NCBI GenBank assembly: GCA_003141315.1
Contig: PLLP01000023.1
Location: 31,701-95,700, forward strand
Direction of reading: 5' to 3'
Length of the DNA stretch: 64,000 nt
From: Phycisphaerales bacterium
GTDB lineage: Bacteria; Planctomycetota; Phycisphaerae; Sedimentisphaerales; Anaerobacaceae
Position 1 is the first letter of the stretch; each line of letters starts with the position of its first letter. The position numbers were made by a program, and so were the translations under genes. The notes beneath the pieces were generated by a model. That model ran no database searches. It worked only from the letters and a program-made list of their open reading frames with translations, and was not told the DNA's origin. Below, in pieces: positions 759 to 19,187 of this stretch.

Positions 759-3119
759 CTATAATAAATTGGCGGGGTCGATGTCGATTGCGACCTGGAC
801 AGCGGGTTTTACAGGGCCGGCGGTACGCAGGATGCCAAACAACTGCTGCAAAACAGCGGCGTCAGGAGCCTGTATGATAATCTGCATTCGATGGAATCTC
901 TGGATTCTGCTGATAAGGGCAGGGGCGGGACCGCGAACAACCGCCTGCAAACGGTTCTGCTGAATAATCGCATCTATCAATTTTTTCATATTATTGCAGG
1001 CGGACTGAAGCTTATCGAAATGCATATCCCGCAGGATGATTGAAGCCATTCGCCAGAACGGCGGCAGATTACAGCTCTTTCGATGCTTCAATTCTTCTTT
1101 TATGAAGCCGTCAAAATCGTCCGCGAGCGCGTACTTTATCGCGGGCTGCTCCGGCAAAAATGTCTGGACAAAGACGACGCCTTTTTTTTCGCAGCGGCCC
1201 GCCCTGCCCGCAACCTGGCTTATCAGCTGAAAAGTCCTTTCATTGGAACGAAAATCCGGCAGGTAAAGGCTGGTATCCGCACTTATTATTCCGACAACGG
1301 TAACCAGCGGAAAATGCAGACCCTTTGCAAGCATTTGAGTGCCGGCGAGAATATCTATTTTGCCCTGGCCAAAATCGTTCAGAAGCTTGTAATAATCCTT
1401 TCCCGCCATAGAGTCGCTGTCAACCCTGGCAACGCGGGCGTGCGGGAATTTCGCCTTCAATTCTTCTTCGAGCCTCTGCGAACCCATACCAATCATAATA
1501 AACTGGCCGCCGCAAAGCGGACATCGTTGCGGCACAAGGGTTTTTGCCCCGCAATGGTGACAGACGGCGCTGCCGTAATTGAGATATGAACCTGTAATGG
1601 TTTTGAGGTTCCCTTTTTCCGCTGTCTCTTTTTTATGGAAGGTAAGCGTGACGTCGCAGTTGCGGCATTGCAGTATATGTTTGCAGGATGAGCAGAAGAC
1701 AAAATTGCTGTAGCCCCGCCTGTTTAACAAGAGGATTGCCTGCTCTTTTTTGTCAAGAATTTCCTTCAATGCCCGTGCCAATGGTGCGCTTAGCAGATTT
1801 ATGCCTTTATTTGACGACAATTCCTTACTCATATCAATAAGTTTCATTTCGGGTTTTGCGGCGTTGGCTACCCTTTTAGGCAGCCGGACGATTGTGAAAT
1901 ATTTTTTACTCTGACAATTATGAAGCGTTTCGAGGGAAGGGGTTGCGCTTCCTAAAATGCAGTGGGCGCCGGCTATTTGCGAGCGTTTTATCGCGACATC
2001 GCGGCCGTGATAACGCGGCGAATTATCCTGCTTGAAACTCGGCTCATGCTCCTCATCAACAATAACTATCCCAAGCCGCTCCAGCGGCGCAAAAATCGCA
2101 GAGCGTGCGCCGATAACCACGTCGGCATCGCCGTTTTTTATCTTGTGCCACTGGCTGTTGCGCTGGGCACTGGACAAGCCCGAATGCATAACAGCGATTC
2201 TTTCAAACCTGCTGCTGAACCTCTGGACAGTCTGGGCTGTAAGGGCTATCTCCGGCAGCAGCACGATTGCGGTTTTGCCCATCCGCAAAACAGATTCAAT
2301 TACCCTGATATAAACCTCAGTTTTTCCACTGTCGGTGACGCCATACAAAACCGTCACGCCGAATTTTTCACTGCTCAACTGCGCATTTATATGCTCCAGC
2401 GCTTTCTGCTGGTCATCATTGAGGACGATTCTGCCGGCTCCTGCAACCGGCGACCCGCCAATCGCAGGCAGGGTCGGTGCGACTTCTTTTTCGAATATCC
2501 TGATAACCTGCTGCTGTGCCAGTTTTTTTACCGGCGACATCGCAGCATCAAGTTCGGAAAGCAATTTTTGCAGTTCAATTGCAGAGGCAGCAACAAAGGC
2601 TGAGCGTTCTTTGAGGACAGAAACAATTTGGCGTTGTTTTTTGCCCTTAATATCGCCAATCAGCTTTTCAAAATCTTCAGCCAGATAAATAAATTTTTGT
2701 TTTTTAACACCGACACTTTTTTTAACCGCAGCCGGCACCATAGATGAAAGAACCTGGCCTAACGGGCAGACATAATAGCTGCTTATCCAGCGTGCCAGAG
2801 CCATCAGGCCGGCATCCAATAAAGGCTCTTTATCAACCACATCTGAAATAACTTTTAATCTTCCTCTGCCTTTTTGCGCGGCATACGATTTCGCAAAAGT
2901 AATATCCGTATCAACACAGAAGCCGGTTTGGGTTTTATTCCCCTGCCCGAAAGGCGCATCGACCCGCTGGCCGACGACGACCGGCCAAAGTTTGTCGGGA
3001 ACAAGGTAGTCAAATTCGGCGTCGACGCCTGCCTCGAACGCCACGCGAATGATATGATTAGATGGTGTTTTCTCTGCCGGGCCGGACGAAAATAGGGTTT
3101 CGGTATGATACCTGCTCAT
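759..3119 (-). CDS. priA: primosomal protein N' (PriA replication restart helicase)
   Basis: 3'-to-5' superfamily 2 DNA helicase that recognises stalled forks and reloads the replisome. The 786-residue length is normal for PriA. Domains in order: N-terminal DNA-binding region (~25-120), Walker A GVTDSGKT at 260-267, Walker B DEEH at 355-358, then a zinc-binding insert of paired cysteines (CSSC, CRNC, CHHC, CPLC) in the second half, followed by helicase motifs including GTQMLAKGLHFP and a QVAGRAGR motif. The conserved N-terminal fold begins at IIRVAFEAG (residue ~23), so a slightly later start cannot be excluded. It starts 12 bases after the stop of the upstream lipoprotein gene, suggesting one transcript. 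Confidence 0.97.
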   Translation of the reverse strand: MSRYHTETLFSSGPAEKTPSNHIIRVAFEAGVDAEFDYLVPDKLWPVVVGQRVDAPFGQGNKTQTGFCVDTDITFAKSYAAQKGRGRLKVISDVVDKEPLLDAGLMALARWISSYYVCPLGQVLSSMVPAAVKKSVGVKKQKFIYLAEDFEKLIGDIKGKKQRQIVSVLKERSAFVAASAIELQKLLSELDAAMSPVKKLAQQQVIRIFEKEVAPTLPAIGGSPVAGAGRIVLNDDQQKALEHINAQLSSEKFGVTVLYGVTDSGKTEVYIRVIESVLRMGKTAIVLLPEIALTAQTVQRFSSRFERIAVMHSGLSSAQRNSQWHKIKNGDADVVIGARSAIFAPLERLGIVIVDEEHEPSFKQDNSPRYHGRDVAIKRSQIAGAHCILGSATPSLETLHNCQSKKYFTIVRLPKRVANAAKPEMKLIDMSKELSSNKGINLLSAPLARALKEILDKKEQAILLLNRRGYSNFVFCSSCKHILQCRNCDVTLTFHKKETAEKGNLKTITGSYLNYGSAVCHHCGAKTLVPQRCPLCGGQFIMIGMGSQRLEEELKAKFPHARVARVDSDSMAGKDYYKLLNDFGQGKIDILAGTQMLAKGLHFPLVTVVGIISADTSLYLPDFRSNERTFQLISQVAGRAGRCEKKGVVFVQTFLPEQPAIKYALADDFDGFIKEELKHRKSCNLPPFWRMASIILRDMHFDKLQSACNNMKKLIDAIIQQNRLQAVVRGPAPALISRIQRFHRMQIIIQAPDAAVLQQLFGILRTAGPVKPAVQVAIDIDPANLL

Positions 3120-3131
3120 CAGACGAAATGC

Positions 3132-3680
3132 TCATTTGTCCAAATTTATACTACGGATTTTTTTCTCAATCTTTTTCATATTAAGGGATGTTCGCCAGGC
3201 AAAAAATGCCGCAAGCAACGCCCCAAACACAGCAACTATAACAGCCAAAACGGAAATCGTAATAGTCATCAGAACCCTTGAAGAAATTGAAGGCAATGAT
3301 ACCTGCAAAGGCGGCAGCTGGGAGCCTTCCGGGATATTGAGCTTTATAGACAAGGTGTTGATATCAGCGACAAAAGCCTTCATGAATTTTTCGAGACTAT
3401 CCCATCCTTCCACCTTGACGGGTATTACCTGCTTTTCTTTCGTGTCAATCTCCACGGAAAACTTCTTATCGGCAGGCATATTCAGCGAAACAGGTCCGCC
3501 TCCGGCGGATTCATTTTTAACCCGGACCTCGACAGGCAGCCCGTTTTCATTTTGCAGGCCGACCCTGACGGGCAAACCGGTAGCAGGCGGGCTGCTTTCT
3601 TTAGCCTGCTCGGCACAGCCGCTAAAAATTAAGGCAAAAATCAAAAAAATAACGCTTCTTTTAAAAACTTCTCTTGCCAT
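3132..3680 (-). CDS. hypothetical lipoprotein with C-terminal membrane segment
   Basis: Not recognised as a named family. The 182-residue protein starts with a lipoprotein signal ending in FSGC (C22 as the lipidated cysteine). The middle section is rich in polar residues and short beta-prone stretches. A hydrophobic helix lies near residues 136-160 (LMTITISVLAVIVAVFGALL), followed by a basic cytoplasm-type tail (KKIEKKIRS). Both ends may therefore be membrane-attached, with the middle outside the cytoplasm. It is immediately upstream of priA (12-base gap) and divergent from the patatin-like gene. No function is assigned. Confidence 0.7.
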   Translation of the reverse strand: MAREVFKRSVIFLIFALIFSGCAEQAKESSPPATGLPVRVGLQNENGLPVEVRVKNESAGGGPVSLNMPADKKFSVEIDTKEKQVIPVKVEGWDSLEKFMKAFVADINTLSIKLNIPEGSQLPPLQVSLPSISSRVLMTITISVLAVIVAVFGALLAAFFAWRTSLNMKKIEKKIRSINLDK

Positions 3681-3849: not shown

Positions 3850-5466
3850 ATGTCGGACAAAATAAACAAAAGCTCAAACGCCGCCGTAAGCCCCGTTAGA
3901 GAATCCACCAGAAGGCGAACCGCAGGTAAGATTACAATATCAGCGGTTTTTTCCGCTTTGATTCTCATTTTTAGCGGCTGCACCACCCGCTACGCTCAAT
4001 CCAACATATATCCATACTGCGACAAGGCTTACCAGGAATGCACCGTGAACCTTAAAAATTACAAATCGCCGCAGCAGCGTATCGAACAGGATGCGAACCT
4101 CGCGCTTACAATAGCAATATCGGGCGGCGGATTCCGGGCGTCGAACTTTAGCGCCGGTGCCCTTGCCGGCCTGGAGGAGCTAAACGCCCCGCTGGCGGCA
4201 CAGGGCAACTGCCTTTCACAAGCCGATTACTTCTCGACCGTTTCCGGCGGCGGGTTCACCGCAGCCGCCTACATCTCCAGCCTTTATGACTATATGCAAT
4301 TCACCGGCTCAGCCGATGGCTACTCTTTCGCAAAGGTGCTGCAAAATACCGCCGAAAATCAAAAGCCGGCAAATACCTGCTGCCTCAGTAATATCCCGCT
4401 GCAAAATTATTCAACCGACCCCTGCATTAAAAGACACCTCCAGGGCTTTTACCCGGACGATATAAAACATCTTATATCCGATATTATATGCTGGTTCTTG
4501 CATGACACCAGGAAAGGCGGCAAATTCGAACAGATTATCGATGATACGTTTCTCGGCTGCCGATTCCGAAAACTGAAACTGCAATCTCTAAATCTGCAAA
4601 ACGGGAAAACAAGCCTCACCCTCGGCGATATTTTTATCCGTCTCGGTGATTCCAACGAAATAAGGCTGCCCTATTGGGTGCCGAATGCAACCGCTTATGA
4701 AAATGGCGCGATTTTTTCGTTCAGTCCAGACCACTTAAAACTCTACGACATTACCGAGTACAAACACCGCAACAAACGGTATCCATACGATTGCCAAAAA
4801 CAAAATTACGAAAATTTCCTTTATAATGTCCCCCTTGCGGTTGCGGTAATGGCCAGCGCCAATTTTCCCGGTGCGACGTATCCCACAACGCTGGGCAGCA
4901 AAATGGATCCGAAAAATCCGTATCTGCATTTATTTGACGGCGGTATGGCAGACAACCTGGCCGTTATAACCGCCGTTCGATTACTGGAAAACGAACAGCA
5001 AAAAGTGCAGCGAAAAGTCCTGCTCGTAATCGACGCATACCAGGGAACGTTTGCGCCATTTTCAAAGATTCGCTATCCCCCGCCGCTCGCCAACACCGCA
5101 CTGCGGGCAACGGCTATTTCTCTCGATTCGTGGAGAGGCAGATACCGCGAAATAATTTCTACCATTTGCGAAGGTAAAGATATAAAGGTAGTTTTCCTGA
5201 GTTTCGATGACCTCGCCGATATGGAAAGCTGCCGGCCTCTTGTCGAATTCGGCCTGACAGAAAACGAAATCCTGCAGCTCACCAAAAAATCGAAACTAAC
5301 AAGGCCTTTCGATTTGCTGCGGAAAATACCTACCGTCAAAACCGGAGACAAGGGATTGCTCACAACTGCCGAGCAAAACCTGCTAATCGCCGCGGGCAGA
5401 TACGTCATCTATGAAAAAAGAGAGCAAATCCTCGATGCCCTCGGCTGGTCCGCCAAGACGGATTGA
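3850..5466 (+). CDS. patatin-like phospholipase family lipoprotein
   Basis: Putative Ser-Asp dyad acyl hydrolase anchored as a lipoprotein. With the ATG at 3850 the protein has 538 residues: lipobox FSGC with Cys44, oxyanion-type SGGGFRAS near residues 91-98, nucleophile motif TVSGGG with Ser132, and the catalytic Asp in DGGMADN near residue 363. These are the three patatin signatures (glycine-rich loop, GxSxG-like elbow, DGG). A TTG 20 codons upstream is also open, but it gives an unlikely extension before the signal peptide. A C-terminal region of ~170 residues follows the patatin core. It is a single gene, divergent from the priA lipoprotein gene. Substrate unknown. Confidence 0.85.
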   Translation: MSDKINKSSNAAVSPVRESTRRRTAGKITISAVFSALILIFSGCTTRYAQSNIYPYCDKAYQECTVNLKNYKSPQQRIEQDANLALTIAISGGGFRASNFSAGALAGLEELNAPLAAQGNCLSQADYFSTVSGGGFTAAAYISSLYDYMQFTGSADGYSFAKVLQNTAENQKPANTCCLSNIPLQNYSTDPCIKRHLQGFYPDDIKHLISDIICWFLHDTRKGGKFEQIIDDTFLGCRFRKLKLQSLNLQNGKTSLTLGDIFIRLGDSNEIRLPYWVPNATAYENGAIFSFSPDHLKLYDITEYKHRNKRYPYDCQKQNYENFLYNVPLAVAVMASANFPGATYPTTLGSKMDPKNPYLHLFDGGMADNLAVITAVRLLENEQQKVQRKVLLVIDAYQGTFAPFSKIRYPPPLANTALRATAISLDSWRGRYREIISTICEGKDIKVVFLSFDDLADMESCRPLVEFGLTENEILQLTKKSKLTRPFDLLRKIPTVKTGDKGLLTTAEQNLLIAAGRYVIYEKREQILDALGWSAKTD

Positions 5467-6438: not shown

Positions 6439-6882
6439 TTATATGCCGAGCAGCAGAGAAAGCTCAACCACGTGCTCCTGCTCGTCAACAATCACGTGAC
6501 GAATCTCGTGCTCGAGCGTTTCAAACTGATACTGCAGGTCTTTTTTATTGTCCATCACCTTCTGGTAAATCTGCTTGTAGAAATCGATAGCGTCTTTTTC
6601 GCCCTTGAGATTGACTTCCAGGATTTTCTTAACGTCTTTGGCCTGGTGCGTTTCAGCAAGATTCATCGACGGCTCACCGCCAAGGTATGAGCCAACGAGA
6701 TTACGGAACTTTTCCTCGTGCTTCAGCTCATCCGATGCAATCTCCTTGAGCCTTTCAATAATGTCCTCGGCATTGATGCCACTGACTAATTCGGCGTGCG
6801 CAAGATACTGAATCCTTGCGGCGTGTTCCAATTCAAGGGCGCGATTCAGCATTGTTATCAATTCTTTTTTGATATCTGCCAT
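6439..6882 (-). CDS. ferritin-like di-iron protein (bacterioferritin type)
   Basis: 147-residue four-helix protein with the ferritin-like metal ligand pattern: E19 (ELEH), E52-x-x-H55 (DELKHEE), E94, and E134-x-x-H137 (DEQEH). This suggests a di-iron site for iron oxidation/storage or oxidative-stress protection; the exact subfamily cannot be settled by eye. The ATG at 6882 is preferred over an upstream extension because a strong AAGGAGG lies just before it. It is the last gene of the minus-strand group that begins with the Rrf2/Fe-S operon, a sensible neighbour for iron handling, although the 79-base gap allows its own promoter. Confidence 0.8.
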   Translation of the reverse strand: MADIKKELITMLNRALELEHAARIQYLAHAELVSGINAEDIIERLKEIASDELKHEEKFRNLVGSYLGGEPSMNLAETHQAKDVKKILEVNLKGEKDAIDFYKQIYQKVMDNKKDLQYQFETLEHEIRHVIVDEQEHVVELSLLLGI

Positions 6883-17691: not shown

Positions 17692-18849
17692 TTATTTTTC
17701 GGATTTAGAATCGAAATCGAGTATATCCTCTTCCTCAACAGGCATAAACCATTTCTGGGCAATGAACGTAGGTATCACGGCGCTTGCGATTACAACACCC
17801 ACAAGGACTGAATACTGCACCTGGTCAATGTAGCCGGCCGTCAATCCGAACACGCTCGATATCGTTCCGAAGGTAAGTCCGGTGCTCATCAATAATGTCG
17901 TGTATGTGCTGCCGTTACGAATATATTTCCTCGCGAGAAAATAGACGCCGATAAATTTGGTCGCCATTTTCAGCAGGAACAAAATAGTGAACAGCCCCCC
18001 TGCTGCGATTATCATAGGCATCGATATTTTAAGCCCGCCCACGATGAAAAATATGGGCGTTATAATAGCATAAGCAACAGTGCGCAGGCGGTCTCGAACC
18101 GCTTTATTGCCGGATGTCTCGCCGAAATGGCTGGACATCAAAAGCCCCAGCAGAAACGCCGGCAAAACCGCGTGCCCGCTGCCTAATTTTGCGAAGAACA
18201 TAAACGCAAGCAGAAGCACAAATACATATTTTATTTCCGGCTCAATCACCTTGTTCTTCAATGCCGGATTGTCAAATACCAGGTGCGAGAATTTCGTCGC
18301 AAAGAATATAACGATAACTGATGCAATCAAAAAAACCAGCGTGTAAACAGTTGGCTTTACAAACAAAATACTCAGGGCAAGGGCGGTTCCCATATCCGTA
18401 ATAAACGTCGAAGCCATAAGCAGTTTGCCTATTTCAGTCGAGGACAACCCCGTTTCAACAAGAACCGAATACACCACGGCAAGGGAAGTCGTCGATAGCG
18501 CCACACCAGCAATCAGGGCTGCCTGAAGAGACCAGCCCGCGACAAAATATGTATAAAGAAAGACACCCAGAAAAGGACACAGAAAAGAGAAGCCGCCTAT
18601 GAGCATACTCTCTTTGAATTTCTCCCGCATCAGACGTGTATCAATTTCCGTTCCTGCCAGATACGTCAGGAGGATACCGCCGAACCCGGCAAGATACATC
18701 ATCCATTCTTCCGGCTTAAGCCCAAAATACCCTCCGATTGCCCCGAAAAGTATTTCAATTATCGCTACCGAAAGCCCCAGTTTCAAAGACAGTAAGCTCG
18801 AAACAAAGACCAAACCTCCAACAACCAGCGGCACCAAATCAGCGTTCAT
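17692..18849 (-). CDS. CPA2-type cation/proton antiporter under a fluoride-riboswitch leader
   Basis: 385-residue membrane protein with about 11-12 hydrophobic segments and CPA2 (KefB/NapA-type) features: FGGILLTYLAGTEID in the N-terminal half, ALIAGVALSTTSLAVVYSVL, and MASTFITDMGTALALSILF, where the Asp (T-D-M) is the likely ion-coupling residue. There is no C-terminal RCK domain; the protein ends in a short acidic tail. Its leader carries a fluoride riboswitch-like aptamer with two terminators, which suggests a role in fluoride tolerance or the pH/cation stress that goes with it. Antiporters are a known minor class of genes under fluoride riboswitches. The ion exchanged cannot be told from sequence. 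Confidence 0.88.
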   Translation of the reverse strand: MNADLVPLVVGGLVFVSSLLSLKLGLSVAIIEILFGAIGGYFGLKPEEWMMYLAGFGGILLTYLAGTEIDTRLMREKFKESMLIGGFSFLCPFLGVFLYTYFVAGWSLQAALIAGVALSTTSLAVVYSVLVETGLSSTEIGKLLMASTFITDMGTALALSILFVKPTVYTLVFLIASVIVIFFATKFSHLVFDNPALKNKVIEPEIKYVFVLLLAFMFFAKLGSGHAVLPAFLLGLLMSSHFGETSGNKAVRDRLRTVAYAIITPIFFIVGGLKISMPMIIAAGGLFTILFLLKMATKFIGVYFLARKYIRNGSTYTTLLMSTGLTFGTISSVFGLTAGYIDQVQYSVLVGVVIASAVIPTFIAQKWFMPVEEEDILDFDSKSEK

Positions 18850-18867
18850 TGTTTTAATTCCTTAAAA

Positions 18868-18986
18868 AGAAAAAACCTCTATCAATCTTTCGATAGAGGC
18901 CTAAAAAAAGAACCTCTACCTTTTACCGGTAGAGGTTATCATCCCTATTTATGAGGGCGGTTTAAGGCGAACCTCATCGCCTTTGT
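18868..18986 (-). promoter_or_regulatory. fluoride riboswitch (crcB type) with two tandem intrinsic terminators
   Basis: Read on the minus strand, the leader has GGCGATGAGGTTCGCC (18981-18966), then TTAAACCG, a small CCCT/AGGG hairpin, TGAT, and AACCTCTACC (18920-18911 side). This order matches the fluoride aptamer consensus (GGCGAUGGnGUUCGCC, AUAAAC, hairpin, UAAUG, CUCCUAC). GAGGTT of the aptamer can pair with AACCTC, the 5' arm of the first terminator. Terminator 1: AACCTCTACC/GGTAGAGGTT, 10 perfect pairs, followed by T7. Terminator 2: CCTCTATC/GATAGAGG (18899-18876), 8 perfect pairs, followed by T6-C-T5. Fluoride binding should favour the pseudoknot and prevent termination, turning on the antiporter gene that starts 19 bases later. 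Confidence 0.88.
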
Positions 18987-19089
18987 ATATAAGAAAAAGG
19001 CCGCAATAAATTGAGCAGCAGAAAGTTGAGCAGAAAACCACAGGTAAGCATTTCCACCTGTTCTCCTGTTCAAATGCTCACCTGCTCTG

Positions 19090-19116: not shown

Positions 19117-19187
19117 CTGGGGTACTAGGATTCGAACCTAGACAAACTGATCCAGAGTCAGTTGTGCTACCATTACACTATACCCCA
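19117..19187 (-). tRNA. tRNA-Gln (CTG)
   Basis: Acceptor stem TGGGGTA/TACCCCA, D arm GTGTAATGGTAGCAC, anticodon stem ACTGA/TCAGT around loop CTCTGGA (anticodon CTG), T arm CTAGG-TTCGAAT-CCTAG, discriminator G. 71 bases; no CCA encoded. Upstream of the antiporter leader on the same strand. Confidence 0.95.

Follow-up and report, generated by a model that had tools for sequence, protein, structure and literature searches.

A fluoride riboswitch followed by two predicted terminators upstream of a CPA2-type antiporter, a candidate fluoride defence

The leader and the gene it precedes

The window analysed here is a stretch of 64,000 nucleotides, in which a fluoride riboswitch leader on the minus strand precedes a gene for a CPA2-type antiporter. 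The features of the locus, in the order in which they would be transcribed, are as follows.

18923-18990, minus strand: fluoride riboswitch aptamer, RF01734 (cmscan)
18970-18975, minus strand: 5' strand of the pseudoknot, GAGGTT, in the loop of P1 (sequence reading)
18932-18937, minus strand: 3' strand of the pseudoknot, AACCTC, which is also the base of the T1 5' arm (sequence reading; the T1 stem starts at 18937)
18911-18937, minus strand: predicted terminator T1, hairpin AACCTCTACC-GGTAAAA-GGTAGAGGTT, then CTTTTTTT (10 pairs, loop of 7, U-tract)
18911-18920, minus strand: T1 3' arm GGTAGAGGTT (RNA GGUAGAGGU), the proposed relay strand (duplex energy, folding)
18873-18902, minus strand: predicted terminator T2, hairpin AGGCCTCTATCGA-AAGA-TTGATAGAGGTTT, then TTTCTTTTT (13 pairs, loop of 4, U-tract; about -15.4 kcal/mol)
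18890-18902, minus strand: T2 5' arm AGGCCTCTATCGA (RNA GCCUCUAUC), the proposed relay target, with its core GCCTCTATC at 18900-18892 (duplex energy, folding)
18859-18863, minus strand: Shine-Dalgarno-like AAGGA, outside both hairpins and 9 nt before the ATG at 18849 (sequence reading)
17692-18849, minus strand: CPA2/NapA-like antiporter of 385 aa with its ATG at 18849, a member of a fluoride-riboswitch-linked subfamily (PF00999; AlphaFold)

The results from cmscan indicate a match to RF01734 at 18923-18990 (52.1 bits, E value 1.4e-11; gathering cut-off 34), which covers all 64 positions of the model and is the sole match in the 2.35 Mb genome. The first-pass annotation had listed the elements of a fluoride aptamer in order, had named no strand, and had suggested the Infernal search whose full-length match is given here. 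On the minus strand the elements follow one another as described, i.e., GGCGATGAGGTTCGCC, AAAC, a small hairpin CCCT/AGGG, and TGATAACCTCTACC, and the positions it gave hold for every element save the ends of the aptamer match. A pseudoknot of 6 bp is predicted from the complementarity between GAGGTT (18975-18970) and AACCTC (18937-18932). The leader of 133 nt folds better than all 200 of 200 shuffled sequences (z -5.2). Based on sequence analysis, it is a fluoride riboswitch of known kind and would be expected to bind fluoride.

The best promoter match, TTGAAA-16-TATAAT (19264-19237, minus strand), precedes a tRNA gene at 19117-19187, which lies on the same strand 126 nt upstream of the aptamer; the leader may therefore be transcribed from there. 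The sequence TATATA at 18991-18986, just before the aptamer, was considered as a -10 box and rejected, because its start site would fall inside P1.

The sole Pfam match of the gene product is PF00999 (Na_H_Exchanger; 125.6 bits, cut-off 26.2), which agrees with the earlier description of the controlled gene as a CPA2-type antiporter; with PF00999 as the only match, the Fluc (PF02537) and CLC (PF00654) domains are absent from the protein. Against the NCBIfam model TIGR00932 (CPA2) it scores 92.0 bits, under the cut-off of 238.3, and it is therefore named CPA2-type rather than a member of that model. The AlphaFold model (pLDDT 86) has NapA (5bz2) as its closest structure (Z 39.1, rmsd 4.0, 366 residues aligned, 20% identity). 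The two proteins share the fold and a Lys at the place of NapA K305, which is invariant in the subfamily, but they differ in the core. At the position of NapA D156, 54 of 55 homologues have Thr, so that the Asp-Asp core pair is not kept; at that of D157, 46 have Asp, 8 Asn, and one Glu. All eight sequences bearing Asn carry a Glu instead of Thr in TM4, and a ninth sequence with the TM4 Glu (L133) has both acids. In TM11, the PRGE of NapA is replaced by an invariant MSTGLTFG stretch. These substitutions suggest that the protein works with a single carboxylate in its core and is not a classical electrogenic Na+/H+ antiporter. At other loci, the antiporter of genome G336 stands in frame behind a PepSY/FTP-like domain of about 270 aa (L099, 129-2126, minus strand), and in L064 (1874-2296, plus strand) and L063 (2005-2427, plus strand) the gene immediately after the antiporter encodes a universal-stress-like protein of 140 aa.

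Association of the antiporter with fluoride riboswitches and with the lack of CrcB

A scan of genome contigs yielded 80 homologues of the antiporter, at 48-80% identity, spread over many lineages of bacteria and some of archaea. Their upstream regions were searched with a covariance model derived from 43 aptamers of planctomycetes. Of the 77 homologues whose upstream sequence was long enough, 63 have an aptamer of at least 20 bits within 350 nt; when weak or missed aptamers were rechecked with Rfam, 18 of 20 passed the cut-off. Na+/H+ antiporters are the commonest class linked to fluoride riboswitches after the exporters (PMC11139923). The association is thus ordinary in kind and unusually tight in this subfamily, and the emphasis of the first-pass annotation, which had called control of an antiporter less common, was misplaced. 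Roughly counted, 30 of 65 leaders carry a terminator beside the aptamer, and 29 carry instead a GGAG that could be masked by the 3' strand of the aptamer.

Neither CrcB nor CLC was found in the genome of the window. Among 56 genomes drawn from the homologue search and from the window's family, CrcB is present in 6 at an E value of at most 0.001 (5 above the family cut-off) and CLC in 8, but since this count has no matched background, the weight rests on a sample of the phylum, i.e., 392 Planctomycetota genomes that were searched together for both the antiporter and CrcB. Close homologues of the antiporter (at least 39% identity) occur in 16 of these genomes, which belong to 16 different families. 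CrcB is found in one of the 16, compared with 235 of the 376 others (Fisher P 6.8e-6). A fluoride riboswitch is present in 14 of the 16, and the remaining two have the gene solely at the end of a contig. The window's own family shows a trend in the same direction, at 1 of 8 versus 27 of 81, which is not significant (P 0.43).

Fluc (CrcB) and CLC-F reportedly do not normally occur in one cell (PMC13397282). Mutual avoidance is therefore what a third exporter would show, although it does not prove transport. The window antiporter resembles Fluc and CLC-F in its riboswitch control and in likewise avoiding CrcB, and differs from them in belonging to an unrelated protein family and in being a putative fluoride transporter only. 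Taken on the distribution of the genes, the subfamily is a good candidate for the main fluoride defence of these cells, in which role it would lower internal fluoride, and it possibly represents a third kind of exporter for fluoride.

Two predicted terminators and their complementarity

The 5' arm of T1 begins at the AACCTC strand of the pseudoknot, which is the terminator overlap of a transcriptional platform, and T1 is present in the unconstrained minimum free energy (MFE) structure of the leader. The sharing of AACCTC between pseudoknot and T1 base bears out the competition between the two that had been described previously. Also as described, a second predicted terminator with a related CCTCTA arm, T2, follows; the MFE structure of the full leader contains it whether the pseudoknot strands are free or blocked. 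By their sequences, T1 and T2 look like the products of a tandem duplication.

A simple scan of 158 distinct fluoride leaders found T1 in 81 and T1 together with T2 in 37. One of the latter, L174, is spurious, as its second hairpin lies inside a gene and lacks complementarity. Upstream of this antiporter, twin terminators were found in the window, in G024 (antiporter 85% identical to that of the window) and L113 (Phycisphaerales), in L111 (Omnitrophota) and, in weaker form, in L183 (Chloroflexi). A second hairpin could also be aligned in 34 of 41 leaders of family f50, which stand mostly before dynamin-like GTPases and have arm sequences different from those of the window.

The first-pass annotation had overlooked that the two hairpins can pair with each other: the related CCTCTA arm would pair the freed 3' arm of T1 with T2, and this predicted cross-pairing would put both terminators under the control of one aptamer. 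In the window the duplex between the T1 3' arm and the T2 5' arm has an energy of -14.9 kcal/mol, a value reached by 0 of 2000 shuffles of the T2 arm. The corresponding values are -17.1 kcal/mol in G024, -14.2 in L113, and -17.3 in L111; in all four, the shuffle means are near -5 kcal/mol and at most 0.05% of shuffles are as good. The f50 leaders were likewise scored by duplex energies, a fixed 12-nt register having misaligned several of them. Their mean with their own arms is -17.0 kcal/mol (n = 34), compared with -5.8 for shuffled arms and -15.9 for arms exchanged at random among the leaders (equalled in 2 of 20000 permutations), a test which overstates independence because related leaders inherit both arms by descent. 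Moreover, duplicated hairpins cross-pair by construction, which makes the complementarity weaker as evidence for a relay. Changes on both sides that preserve the pairing were found in genus g153 (C-G to U-A) and in one L093 leader, which has CTTCAATAGGAG with CTCCTGTTGAAG (CTTCAA with TTGAAG).

The fluoride-bound state was represented in folding by keeping the pseudoknot strands unpaired, the energies of the pseudoknot and of Mg/fluoride being outside the folding model. Under this constraint the relay helix is the predicted MFE structure in 12 of 12 leaders, until the exposed RNA reaches to within 5 nt of the start of the T2 U-tract or past it; in this set the 5' pseudoknot strand was shifted by a single base in most leaders and wrongly positioned in L083 and L097, in every case outside the relay helix. 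In the window, T2 overtakes the relay helix only once its 3' arm is fully out. For the finished leader the energies are -15.4 kcal/mol for T2 versus -13.6 for the relay helix, with a computed barrier of about 7.6 kcal/mol, and the relay could therefore act only kinetically. The folding results make it a plausible kinetic antiterminator, which would perhaps give partial protection.

Proposed mechanism and alternative readings

We propose, with a probability of about 0.6, that the leader is a transcriptional ON fluoride riboswitch in which one aptamer governs two terminators by a relay, upstream of an antiporter that is probably the main fluoride defence. When fluoride is absent, AACCUC would leave the aptamer and form T1, and any polymerase leaking past T1 would meet T2. 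When fluoride is bound, the pseudoknot would hold AACCUC, so that T1 is blocked and its 3' arm GGUAGAGGU stays free to pair with the T2 5' arm, GCCUCUAUC, the moment the latter is synthesised. The formation of T2 would thereby be delayed until its U-tract has been passed, and the polymerase would continue into the antiporter gene. If true, the relay would allow one small aptamer to open two terminators, so that the OFF state is tighter with no need of a second sensor, and would illustrate how a regulated terminator can arise by duplication.

T2 might instead be a fail-safe terminator that is independent of fluoride and reduces expression whether or not fluoride is present, its resemblance to T1 being the functionless remnant of a duplication. 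The strength of T2 as a hairpin on its own, its place in the full-leader MFE in both states, and the copy-like appearance of the two hairpins all speak for this reading, as does G023, whose antiporter is 90% identical to that of the window and whose leader has a single terminator, so that T2 is not needed. However, a hairpin of 13 bp with a U-tract that fluoride did not release would largely cancel an ON switch. Moreover, cross-complementarity exceeds that of shuffles in two unrelated sequence settings, pairing is kept through changes on both sides, and most f50 leaders have retained twin terminators; we consider the fail-safe reading possible rather than probable. That the T2 hairpin acts as a 5' stabiliser of the read-through mRNA, not as a terminator, would suit its location, which is immediately ahead of the ribosome site and would put it at the 5' end of a processed message or close to it, but the U run that directly follows its stem, in the window and likewise in G024, L113, and L111, makes this very improbable.

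As for the protein, there is an about even chance that it is an ordinary Na+(K+)/H+ exchanger, which moves no fluoride and restores the cytoplasmic pH after entry of HF. NapA, the best structural match, is itself a Na+/H+ antiporter, and a review interprets the riboswitch link as pH homeostasis (PMC11139923). Against this stand the loss of the NapA Asp pair, with the Glu gained in TM4 where D157 is Asn, and the genomic distribution, as one would expect to find such an exchanger together with CrcB or CLC-F, whereas most of these genomes are without CrcB. Beyond the proposed role in the window, we tentatively extend the reading to a family of CPA2 proteins linked to fluoride riboswitches that would be a third exporter family of bacteria and archaea and take the place of Fluc and CLC-F, with a relay that opens two terminators in some lineages; this wider claim is more doubtful than not. 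The matter bears on the open question of how cells without CrcB or CLC-F survive fluoride, which the near-absence of CrcB alongside the antiporter makes directly testable, and it is of relevance for the engineering of microbes that degrade fluorinated chemicals.

The literature search, which covered few subscription papers, returned no description of a CPA2 fluoride exporter and none of tandem or second terminators after a fluoride aptamer; judged by that literature, an expression platform in which a relay links two terminators would be a variant without earlier description. The transcriptional RF01734 riboswitch of crcB in Bacillus cereus is like that of the window in its aptamer, its pseudoknot, and a terminator whose base overlaps the 3' strand of the pseudoknot (PMC11077080), whereas the window has two terminators for one aptamer and a T1 3' arm complementary to the T2 5' arm. 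In a study of 2026 on covariation across entire fluoride riboswitches, the aligned part of validated terminators after the aptamer was limited to 5-40 nt (PMC13273304). The rimP leader of Gammaproteobacteria likewise has tandem terminators and a possible anti-terminator (PMC2965389), but it has no aptamer and its sequence is unrelated. The Na+-I/c-di-AMP tandem riboswitch also places T1 and T2 in series (PMC9337991); it has two aptamers, each with its own terminator, in contrast to the single aptamer of the window.

At the f50 loci (e.g., L047 and L091-L100; 11 genera), most fluoride riboswitches stand before genes for dynamin-like GTPases or for proteins that resemble the C-terminal part of these, and no paper naming a fluoride riboswitch and dynamin together was returned by the literature search. 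In G024 (L070, contig C31), two divergent fluoride riboswitches lie 107 nt apart (2911-2972, minus strand; 3080-3149, plus strand), one serving the antiporter, with twin terminators, and the other a dynamin-like GTPase (PF00350, 105.5 bits).

Fluoride was listed in a 2022 survey among the riboswitch classes never found in tandem (PMC9481103). In L099 (G336), one leader holds two aptamers, at 3086-3149 and 2963-3023 on the minus strand, 62 nt apart and with a terminator between them, the first of which is weak (33.9 bits). In L144 (Methanoregula), four fluoride aptamers lie within 3.2 kb on the plus strand (at 1337, 2708, 2905, and 4457); two of the four, separated by 132 nt, stand ahead of the archaeal antiporter. 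In L071 (G026:C22:149000-159000), fluoride riboswitches at 4075-4143, 5352-5420, and 6597-6665 on the minus strand are spaced by about 1.25 kb; two of the three precede only a C-terminal scrap of the antiporter, and each now stands before other genes. Judged by this arrangement, L071 is a riboswitch-antiporter unit that has multiplied and decayed.
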